The translations under genes were made by a program, and so were the position numbers. Below, one piece after another: positions 7,472 through 20,187 of a stretch of 21,351 nt of DNA. This stretch comes from a virus. Location: positions 1 through 21,351 of the IMG/VR virus record IMGVR_UViG_3300042484_001306. The stretch is one strand, 5' to 3'. The notes beneath the pieces are model-generated. The model saw only the letters and a list, made by a program, of their open reading frames with translations. It was not told the origin of the DNA and did no database searches. Every line of letters starts with the position of its first letter. The first letter of the stretch is position 1.

Positions 7472-7505
7472 AGTCGATTAGATTAGTTCTTGTTGTTTGA
7501 TGGGT

Positions 7506-7537
7506 CAAAGGTGATAATTACTTTTTGACATATGCAA
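7506..7537 (-). promoter_or_regulatory. leading promoter of the leftward arm
   Basis: On the minus strand TTG of TTGCATA (plus 7535-7537) lies 21 bp upstream of CACCTTTG (plus 7506-7513). The element shares TTGCATAT and ATTATCACCTTT with the promoter at 5531-5561. It sits about 35 bp before the first gene of the arm (start at 7471). Confidence 0.65.
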
Positions 7538-7607
7538 GTTTTTAGGTGAAAGTTTTTTTGATTCACACATAACTTGCTGATAATCACCGACAAAAGTTTT
7601 AGTCAGA

Positions 7608-7630
7608 GGGTTAGCGTAGGTGCATAACCC
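7608..7630. repeat. stem-loop GGGTTA/TAACCC
   Basis: A 6-bp perfect inverted repeat (7608-7613 and 7625-7630) with an 11-base spacer. It could be a regulator site or a small hairpin near the start of the G-rich tract. Confidence 0.45.
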
Positions 7631-7640
7631 ATAGCCTAGT

Positions 7641-7687
7641 GGGGGGAAGTGGGAGGTAGTGGGAGGCTAAAGGTTGATTAGGGAGGG
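7641..7687 (+). repeat. G-rich tract with 10-bp tandem repeat
   Basis: The plus strand has AGTGGGAGGT followed directly by AGTGGGAGGC (7648-7667), flanked by GGGGGG (7641-7646) and GGGAGGGG (7681-7688). The four G-runs could fold as a G-quadruplex, with one long loop. The strong G/C asymmetry stands out from the AT-rich surroundings. Confidence 0.5.
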
Positions 7688-7861
7688 GCTATTGTTCCTC
7701 GCTTCGGAACTCCTCACCAAACCTACCAAACAAACGCTCAAGCCGCTCACCATATCCGACCAACCAAAACGCCAAAAGTTTGCAATAGGAATACACGCGC
7801 ACGAGGGGCATACGTGCAGGATTGCGTTTCCGTTTGCGGGTGCGTACGCTTATATATGTAT

Positions 7862-7878
7862 ATTATCCCCCAGATAAT
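7862..7878. repeat. stem-loop ATTATC/GATAAT
   Basis: A 6-bp perfect stem (7862-7867 and 7873-7878) with a 5-base loop CCCCA, in an AT-rich stretch of the inter-arm region. Confidence 0.4.
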
Positions 7879-7933
7879 TATTTCTGACTCTAAATAATTT
7901 AACCTACCCTAGATACTTTTATCTAACTACAAT

Positions 7934-7968
7934 GCTTCTGACGTCAACCCTTAGGTTGAGGAAGAAGC
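7934..7968. repeat. two-part hairpin, TCAACC-CTTA-GGTTGA with outer GCTTC/GAAGC
   Basis: The inner stem (7944-7949 and 7954-7959) has tetraloop CTTA. The outer 5-bp stem (7934-7938 and 7964-7968) is separated by a small internal loop. The architecture matches the hairpin at 8032-8066: inner 6-bp stem, four-base loop, internal loop, outer stem. Confidence 0.5.
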
Positions 7969-8031
7969 TGCAGACGTAAACTTATACATTGACGATAGTA
8001 GTCTAAACAGCTGTTAAATTACCATCACGTG

Positions 8032-8066
8032 GGAGGTGGAGGGTCCCTAAGGACCCGTATACCTCC
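8032..8066. repeat. two-part hairpin, GGGTCC-CTAA-GGACCC with outer GGAGGT/ACCTCC
   Basis: The inner stem (8041-8046 and 8051-8056) has tetraloop CTAA. The outer 6-bp stem (8032-8037 and 8061-8066) is separated by a 3x4 internal loop. All 12 pairs are Watson-Crick. No T-run follows on either strand, so it is not a canonical terminator. The RNA would be very stable. Confidence 0.6.
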
Positions 8067-8185
8067 ATTACTCTGCTTTATATGGAGTAAAAACGAGTAA
8101 ACAATATGTAATGATGATCAGAACGAACAGACCATAGTTGTCGCTTATTCTGGGTATCTGAGCACTTGATGTGTTTCGTGACGGG

Positions 8186-8219
8186 TAGGGGGGTCTCTGC
8201 TTATGCTACGACCCCCTTA
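8186..8219. repeat. long stem-loop with GGGGGTC/GACCCCC
   Basis: A stem of up to 10 pairs (8186-8195 with 8210-8219, one G-U) encloses a 14-base loop. It sits between the two copies of TGATGTGT (8167-8174 and 8225-8232), giving a repeat-hairpin-repeat layout. Confidence 0.55.
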
Positions 8220-8233
8220 GTACGTGATGTGTA

Positions 8234-8259
8234 AAAGCGATTGTCTTTTAGATCGCTTT
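8234..8259. repeat. stem-loop AAAGCGAT/ATCGCTTT
   Basis: An 8-bp perfect inverted repeat (8234-8241 and 8252-8259) with a 10-base spacer. It lies about 60 bp upstream of the first rightward promoter and could be a regulator-binding site or an RNA hairpin. Confidence 0.5.
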
Positions 8260-8319
8260 GTCTTTGAGCACTGTCACTGCAGACCTTAGTCTATGCGAAG
8301 GTACGAATGGATTTACAAC

Positions 8320-8348
8320 TTGTCAACCGACTATTTTTTGTATATTTG
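8320..8348 (+). promoter_or_regulatory. rightward Bacteroidota-type promoter
   Basis: TTG (8320-8322), an 18-bp spacer, then TATATTTG (8341-8348), an exact TAnnTTTG. The first start codon downstream is the ATG at 8371, preceded by the A-rich stretch AACAACAAAAATATAACACT. Confidence 0.72.
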
Positions 8349-8370
8349 CAAACAACAAAAATATAACACT

Positions 8371-9108
8371 ATGAAAATCTACCATATAAAGAACAGCTAC
8401 GGGTCCAACAAGATTGTGATTGCATCAGACAGATCCGCATTCTACACGTTTAGGAACAAGGCAGGTGATATATCGCCACTTAAGAAGATATACTGTGACG
8501 ACAGGGGTTGGACCGTTGTATCGACTAATGGCCTCAAGAAAGGTATATCCTTAAATATAGTGGAGATAGACTATGACAGGGAGTTCTCTTATGATTCATT
8601 ATCAGGTCCAGTAGGTACATCTGTAATGTGCGAATACGAATCAGTAAAGGAATGGCTAGACAGCAACAACTGCAAGATTCTACCTGGAGGAATGTGTAGG
8701 TACGCTGTATCTAGCAAGGGGGAGGCATTTCGTATGTTTGATAAATTTGGTAATCTAAAACCTTTTAAGTTAATTGGAGCTAAAAATAGTAGGGGGTATA
8801 CACAGATTCATATTAAACAATTAGATGGTTCGACTAAATATGTATTAATCCATAGACTTGTAGCATATATGTTTCTCAATCTAAGTTGGGACTCTAAACT
8901 TGACATCGATCATATAAATATGAATAAGGACGATAATAGGTTAAAAAACATTAGGGCGTGTACAAGGTCTGAGAATTTACAATTCTTTAGAGACCGAGTT
9001 GTAAAGCTGTACATAAAAAATGGAAGAGATATAGCAAGCACCGCAAGGGCTATGAATATAACTCAATTTAAAGTAGCGCAGTCATTGTCTATGGAAGGCG
9101 TTAAGTAG
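8371..9108 (+). CDS. HNH homing endonuclease with duplicated N-terminal module, 245 aa
   Basis: This is a probable site-specific DNA endonuclease that promotes its own spread. The HNH_3-type core is clear: HRLVAYMFL (His161), then DIDHINMNKDDNRLKNI (Asp180, His181, Asn189, Arg190, Asn193) and SENLQFF. The end, GRDIASTARAMNI, looks like a helix-turn-helix used for site recognition. Two NUMOD4-like units seem to be repeated: IVIASDRSAFYTFRNKAG (residues 15-32) and YAVSSKGEAFRMFDKFGN (111-128). I chose the ATG at 8371, behind the promoter, over an upstream frame start at 8293. The part after about 8730 is more AT-rich than the first third, suggesting a composite origin. Confidence 0.85.
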   Translation: MKIYHIKNSYGSNKIVIASDRSAFYTFRNKAGDISPLKKIYCDDRGWTVVSTNGLKKGISLNIVEIDYDREFSYDSLSGPVGTSVMCEYESVKEWLDSNNCKILPGGMCRYAVSSKGEAFRMFDKFGNLKPFKLIGAKNSRGYTQIHIKQLDGSTKYVLIHRLVAYMFLNLSWDSKLDIDHINMNKDDNRLKNIRACTRSENLQFFRDRVVKLYIKNGRDIASTARAMNITQFKVAQSLSMEGVK

Positions 9109-19318: not shown

Positions 19319-19594
19319 ATGATTGGTCTCGGTTTAAGCGTAAGCCTGACTCCGTCTGGTGCTGGATTCCTTCGCGGAGCAGCTCAGCTAATCTACAATG
19401 ACTACTACAACCGAGTAACGGCAGATGGTGGTACTGTGGAGGGAGAGTCTTGTTTTGAGCGTGCTGTATTCCTACTTGGTGTTCGTAACACCGTCAACTA
19501 CATCGACCTAATCTTCCAAAGATGGACTGCCGACGGCGGAACTATAGAGGCGGAAGATTGCTTTACAAATTCTTTCTTTGCGCTAAATCAGTGA
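19319..19594 (+). CDS. small virion-type protein with duplicated TADGGT motif, 91 aa
   Basis: Two copies of the same unit are visible: RVTADGGTVEGESCF (residues 32-46) and RWTADGGTIEAEDCF (68-82), each followed by a hydrophobic stretch (AVFLLG, NSFFALN). The N-terminus (MIGLGLSVSLTPSGAGFLRG) is hydrophobic and Gly-rich. 'DGGTxE' units with a Cys occur in small structural proteins of Bacteroidota phages. The role is inferred. The TGA overlaps the ATG of the inserted homing endonuclease by one base. Confidence 0.7.
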   Translation: MIGLGLSVSLTPSGAGFLRGAAQLIYNDYYNRVTADGGTVEGESCFERAVFLLGVRNTVNYIDLIFQRWTADGGTIEAEDCFTNSFFALNQ

Positions 19595-20187
19595 TGGAAG
19601 AGTGGAAGGACATACTAGGCTACGAAGGCGAATATCAAGTGAGTAACTATGGTAGCGTAAGGAGTCTTGATAGGTATATAAAGTCTAAATCTAAACTAGA
19701 TAAAGAGTTTGTGTATTTTAAAAGAGGTAAGAACTTAATACCAGAACTTGGGTCGTTGGTTTATCCTTATGTCGTTTACTATTTAAAAAAAGACGGAAAG
19801 AGATACTACAACAAAGCCCACAGGCTTGTTGCTAAAGCTTTTATTTCGAACCCAGAAAACAAGAAGGTTGTCAATCACATTGATTCAAATCCAAGAAACA
19901 ATCACGTAGACAACCTAGATTGGGTAACACATAGCGAGAATGCCAAACACGCTTACGATAACGGAAGGATTGATATAACAAAAGCAATAGAGGCTTCAAG
20001 GGAATCAAGAATTGGTACCGGAAAAATTGTATATCAATACACAATCAATAAAAAACCAATAGCTCAGTTTAACAGTGTTAGGTCTGCGGCTAAAATAACA
20101 AACTCTGACGAAAACTCTATATCAAAGGTTTGCAGAGGAGTAATCAATATTCACAATAATTATTTTTGGAGTTATGAGCTTTTATAG
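19594..20187 (+). CDS. HNH homing endonuclease with NUMOD4 and NUMOD1, 197 aa
   Basis: The domain order is textbook: NUMOD4 at residues 2-27 (EEWKDILGYEGEYQVSNYGS, then VRSLDR), HNH_3 core at about 76-117 (HRLVAKAFI with His76, VVNHIDSNPRNN with Asn94 and His95, NLDWVTHSEN with Asn116), and a NUMOD1-like unit at 145-182 (IVYQYTINKKPIAQFNSVRS, then AAKITNSDENSI). It is a free-standing nuclease that likely cuts a phage gene lacking it. It is AT-rich compared with its structural neighbours, a sign of transfer. Start and stop overlap both neighbours, so it disturbs neither. Confidence 0.9.
   Translation: MEEWKDILGYEGEYQVSNYGSVRSLDRYIKSKSKLDKEFVYFKRGKNLIPELGSLVYPYVVYYLKKDGKRYYNKAHRLVAKAFISNPENKKVVNHIDSNPRNNHVDNLDWVTHSENAKHAYDNGRIDITKAIEASRESRIGTGKIVYQYTINKKPIAQFNSVRSAAKITNSDENSISKVCRGVINIHNNYFWSYELL

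Follow-up and report, generated by a model that had tools for sequence, protein, structure and literature searches.

A conserved gene-free locus, probably a control element, at the divergence of two gene arms in a phage related to crAss-like phages

Why should a phage keep 899 nt free of genes between two divergent gene arms? The interval lies in the record of an uncultured lake phage; the whole stretch analysed, here called the window, is the complete virus record of 21,351 bases, which may be a piece of a larger genome. Its left arm (minus strand) encodes ERF, a RecE-like exonuclease and DUF7178, and its right arm (plus strand) HNH, an M15 endolysin, terminase and portal; we infer that the left arm is early and the right arm late. 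Among relatives the left arm holds nucleotide and replication genes (primase-helicase, RNR, ThyX, ERF, exonuclease), and the terminase is common to 12 of the 14 records checked, at 65-99% identity. We place the relatives near the crAss-like phages, because one of them has a crAss muzzle domain and because tblastn matches them to Azobacteroides, Cellulophaga and Flavobacterium phages (<60% identity). The gene-free region appears to be a genuine control element, and probably serves as an origin of replication or encodes an early untranslated RNA. Comparison of the relatives (conservation, position, a promoter motif termed P1, core spacing, lack of a conserved gene) points to a non-coding control locus that is conserved where the early and late arms diverge.

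Gene content and conservation of the interval

The earlier note had called the region gene-free, and this was borne out: between the DUF7178 and HNH genes the only ORFs of at least 40 aa are one of 67 aa and one of 40 aa, and no conserved open frame was found among relatives, the frame over the core having stops in many homologs. Third-position-like variation had hinted at coding potential in the core, a candidate that stops in all frames ruled out. ARAGORN found no tRNA or tmRNA in the window. Rfam searches of the window and of the relatives' loci, at gathering and permissive thresholds, gave no match within the element, including GOLLD and ROOL; a Pistol ribozyme (RF02679, 54.5 bits) was hit elsewhere in one relative's contig (L133:13389-13452). 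No homologs of the element were found in cultured phages or plasmids, and no copy could be recognised in Elemovirus or the Manatee Spring phage. Bacterial genomes gave 12 matches to the core block 2 pattern, all without context and chance-like.

At least 12 distinct contigs contain the interval in alignable form (72-94% identity), and ordered short blocks are kept in ~35 contigs, always at the arm divergence. In further relatives the order is G-rich tract, ATTGTTCC, core block 1, core block 2, AT-rich tract, ATCCCC (Table 1). A scan of viral contigs with the core block 2 pattern gave 64 stretches, ~45 of them in element context; 35 homologs were aligned. This way of gathering them partly builds in the conservation of block 2; block 1 and the inter-block spacing were absent from the pattern. 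The contigs compared are often fragments, and in five contigs of 60-76 kb the element stands at the divergence of two arms. Relatives of the HNH gene occur in only four contigs and those of the endolysin gene are common; since the interval is conserved beside various other ORFs or none, it is independent of the HNH gene. (The record has a second HNH gene, at 19522-20187, with NUMOD4 and NUMOD1.) These comparisons indicate strong constraint on a gene-free stretch that both annotation and Rfam pass over.

Some relatives have additional features around the element. L037 and L019 bear a second long GC-rich gene-free stretch left of it, which in the L131/L136/L158 group has its own promoter-like site. 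On the stretch from the element to the endolysin gene, L006, L019 and L041 share a palindrome-like CCTACTAATTTAGTAGG and, after it, TTTATTCTGC, with slight differences. The pair recurs in relatives that lack the window's HNH gene, and is a possible operator or late promoter.

Table 1. Features of the gene-free interval and its borders (positions in the window)
Feature	Position	Strand	Remark
DUF7178 gene	start 7471	minus	left border of gene-free interval
Whole gene-free interval	7472-8370		between divergent arms; homologous interval in at least 12 contigs
Putative P2, TTG-N21-CACCTTTG, relaxed box	7506-7537	minus	before first left-arm gene
Left-end block TGATAATCACCGACAAAA	7578-7595		alignment
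G-rich tract, G-quadruplex-like on plus strand	7641-7666	plus	G-runs also in relatives
Conserved ATTGTTCC block	7691-7698		alignment
Core block 1, AAAACGCYAAAA	7766-7777		exactly 39 bp before block 2
Core block 2, GGGGnnTnnGTnnnGGATTnCGTTTCSG	7805-7832		homolog alignment
AT-rich tract ending ATCCCC	7850-7871		adjoins core; relatives
AGATAATTATTTCT-type AT-rich repeats	7864-7905		unit number differs among close relatives
Hairpin-rich module, predicted transcribed	7930-8300	minus	z -4.7/-4.5; close relatives z -2.5 to -5.8
Hairpin GCTTCT..TCAACC-CTTA-GGTTGA..AGAAGC	7934-7968		sequence, alignment
Proposed long-range helix arm	7999-8011		partner 8276-8285; one covarying pair, two G-U switches
Double stem GGAGGT/ACCTCC + GGGTCC/GGACCC	8032-8066		sequence, alignment
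Stem-loop	8125-8150		
GC-rich hairpin, conserved apical GC-NYAA-GC	8189-8216		stem covaries between relatives
Hairpin AAAGCGAT-N10-ATCGCTTT	8234-8259		invariant in close group
Stem-loop	8281-8292		
Predicted P1, TTG-N20-TACCTTCG	8296-8326	minus	leftward, predicted start ~8291; same motif at same edge in homologs
Possible P3, TTG-N18-TATATTTG	8320-8348	plus	toward HNH and endolysin genes; sequence inspection
HNH gene	8371-9108	plus	right border of gene-free interval; optional element neighbour in relatives

Predicted promoters and a bipartite core

Of the 33 homologs, which are related and represent about ten sequence groups, 25 carry the pattern TTG-N19/20-TAnnTT(T/C)G on the minus strand no more than 600 nt from the core. 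Dinucleotide shuffles give an expectation of 0.29, a figure that is not fully independent since the pattern was written from relatives first spotted by eye. On the plus strand the pattern occurs in 4. In four of the homologs missed by the strict pattern there is an N20 version with a single mismatch in the box. The spacer length is 20 almost without exception, the spacer sequence varying between groups, and in the whole window the strict pattern has only three matches, all on the minus strand. Flavobacterial sigma-A promoters carry TAnnTTTG at -12 to -5 (PMC9723704). As a sequence pattern, P1 agrees with this Bacteroidota type in its TTG, the gap of ~20 nt and a TAnnTTTG-type box, with a frequent T-to-C variant; it differs in that the box is usually TA(A/C)CTT(T/C)G and the 20-nt spacer is near-constant. 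Judged by this resemblance P1 would be active and its RNA would exist, and the region is very likely transcribed leftward from predicted P1 as an untranslated RNA. We considered, and rejected, a phage virion RNA polymerase as reader of the region, the giant proteins checked having no DxDGD motif.

P2 is the weaker predicted promoter: its box is relaxed in the close group, and several other relatives have a canonical TAnnTTTG in its place. It lies downstream of the core in most homologs, ahead of the left-arm genes; left-arm expression alone would therefore not call for P1. We found no intrinsic terminator on the minus strand before P2. The first box of P3 adjoins that of P1; the P3 spacing falls outside the strict scan, and P3 is therefore not in the promoter count. 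A control function, for which the earlier note named an origin, a structured non-coding RNA and a switch for both arms as candidates, is supported by the predicted minus-strand transcript together with this divergent arrangement.

Could the transcript serve the early operon as a long untranslated leader? P1 would then read into the left arm, and hairpins and core would act in cis, e.g. as an antitermination or timing element. The direction of P1 and the lack of a detected intrinsic terminator before the left arm are consistent with this, as is the clustering of sigma-A-type matches in the early arm of contig G001. Lambda nut and HK022 put are antitermination elements of early leaders, and share with the element an untranslated leader segment in early orientation; unlike them, it is much longer and is followed by a second promoter. 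Because P2 lies where it does in most homologs, its transcripts would lack the element, and we consider a leader role improbable.

The bipartite core (7766-7832) is the most rigid part of the locus: the distance from block 1 to block 2 is 39 bp in 33 of the 35 homologs, with most of the bases between them varying. A fixed distance over a freely varying spacer suggests a DNA element bound by protein, an RNA motif being the alternative; folding of the core does not exceed chance (left-module z ~0). An AAAACGC/CGTTT pairing inside the core was ruled out by eye, being broken in several homologs. The AT tract averages 70% AT in 22 distinct homologs, against a background of 56%; in the L131/L136 group its position is GC-rich.

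Fixed core spacing and closely placed divergent P1 and P3 are also what one might see if the locus worked at the DNA level only, as an operator region switching P1, P2 and P3 or as a packaging or end site, the hairpins being incidental. Contig ends fit such an end site in one respect: within 2 kb of the endolysin gene, 16 of the 43 endolysin-side contigs (L006-L048) end on the element side and 2 downstream. This pile-up could reflect assembly breaks, strain variation or genome ends; however, the ends are scattered with no single point, like assembly breaks. A packaging site is more usually near the terminase gene, here 6 kb off, and stable hairpins in DNA predicted to be transcribed suggest a role for RNA. 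A purely DNA-level role is, in our judgement, quite improbable.

Folding and covariation of the hairpin module

The earlier note saw a region packed with hairpins. This holds for ~7930-8300 and was overstated for the left half, where 7563-7932 has z ~0 and is not structured beyond chance. At least six stem-loops are present, as it said (7934-7968, 8032-8066, 8125-8150, 8189-8216, 8234-8259 and 8281-8292), as are the direct repeat, with GTGGGAGG copies at 7639-7670 and 8029-8050, and the G-rich tract. Its 10-bp palindrome, AACAGCTGTT at 8006-8015, exists in the window but is not conserved as a palindrome, 6 of the 10 aligned relatives having AATAGCTGTT; it is therefore probably one arm of the long-range helix of Table 1, whose two G-U switches are standard pairs on the minus strand only.

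Folding of the whole interval gave z -4.75 (plus) and -7.39 (minus), with only 20 shuffles. When the record was scanned in 370-nt segments, 7931-8300 and the overlapping 8001-8370 (z -4.1 to -4.7) took the first two places, in that order, on the plus strand; on the minus strand 7931-8300 came third and 8001-8370 first, with the segment at 2001 alongside. By folding energy the plus strand is as stable or more so, and this does not decide the strand. The other well-folding stretch, 2001-2700 (z -3.7/-4.5), lies upstream of ERF, contains small ORFs, is conserved in close relatives and has a minus-strand match to the sigma-A-type promoter on either side (2684-2654 and 2152-2122). In far relatives different hairpins occupy equivalent places, and in several far groups the module is no more stable than shuffles; L036 has a different hairpin (GCTCTC/GAGAGC) instead of that at 8234-8259. 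A conserved hairpin at the predicted RNA 5' end was not enriched.

With the minus-strand structure, 99.3% of cells are paired in the ten close relatives, and both sides have changed in only two pairs. Three further pairs alternate A-U or G-C with G-U, which on the plus strand would give A-C mismatches; these switches are a hint of the minus strand, the assignment of which rests on P1, not on covariation. In the GC-rich hairpin, three positions covary by eye between relatives (U-A to G-C, G-C to U-A, G-C to C-G). The close group has two to three times the number of confident pairs seen in controls. Yet where predicted pairs differ between close relatives, the two bases still pair in 23% of cases, and in column-shuffled controls in 24%, so the stems are preserved mainly by sequence conservation. 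The covariation analysis that had been proposed thus gives a divided answer: compensatory changes are rare, a few stems covary and most do not, across the module as a whole the close group does not exceed control, and an ornate RNA is not proven. That the region probably does something stands as far as the sequence goes, which is clearly conserved and keeps the stems with it; pairing beyond sequence is weakly shown.

These results bear on a further explanation, a stand-alone structured non-coding RNA of 0.7-0.8 kb made from P1 and acting in trans in the manner of GOLLD and ROOL. It would account for a module among the most structured segments of the record, for stems kept in close relatives with two covarying pairs, for the joint change of the GC-rich hairpin and helix 1 in L036 and L129, and for the absence of a conserved ORF. 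GOLLD and ROOL (PMC12286853) are of the same size class, occur in phage genomes and likewise have a conserved and a less conserved part. The element differs from them in having no Rfam match, in not lying by tRNA genes (none in the window), in its little covariation and in that its most conserved part, the core, is unstructured. The equality of pairing retention with controls, the stability no greater than that of shuffles in several far groups and a 3' end undefined by any terminator also count against an RNA acting in trans, which we hold to be unlikely.

A transcription-activated origin as working model

Our working model, to which we give a probability of about 0.4, is a transcription-activated replication origin, with the non-coding RNA and the early leader as close rivals. 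In this model a host sigma-A-type P1 at the right edge would start an untranslated leftward RNA, which would cross the hairpin-rich, fast-evolving stretch and then enter the invariant bipartite core with its AT-rich and G-rich neighbours; the transcript would open or prime the DNA at the core, phage replication proteins would bind there, and P2 would then start the left-arm genes. We favour an origin because a promoter, an untranslated RNA without terminator, a rigid core and an AT-rich neighbour occur together. The promoter reads into a conserved element with DNA that is AT-rich in most homologs, not all; the variable AT-rich repeats of close relatives, the position at the arm divergence in the 60-76 kb contigs and the replication genes of the left arm also speak for it. 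Transcription-activated origins of the ColE1 and T4 type consist of a promoter, an untranslated structured transcript and a short conserved DNA element, and need no terminator. The likeness of the element to them is one of layout, with no sequence similarity known, and its predicted RNA would be C-rich, not G-rich.

Several observations weigh against an origin. The L131/L136 group lacks the AT tract, and the hairpin module would require a separate explanation. Over the G-rich tract the predicted minus-strand RNA would be rich in C, and this is not the strand that usually favours R-loops. No known origin motif was identified in the element. Cumulative GC skew, which had been proposed as a check, was computed for the five contigs of 60-76 kb; it follows gene strand, not replichore, and because it tracks gene orientation it is uninformative for or against an origin.

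To our knowledge, neither the start of replication nor the set-up of early transcription has been established in crAss-like phages, and our literature search found no description of such a region. We tentatively suggest that the locus may represent an undescribed class of phage locus: a non-coding RNA driven by a host promoter, its structured 5' domain evolving fast and its linear core invariant, which would sit at the arm divergence throughout a crAss-like-related clade and be needed to start replication or the infection programme. Being compact, with a defined predicted promoter and a fixed core, and having dozens of variants in nature, it offers a direct experimental handle.
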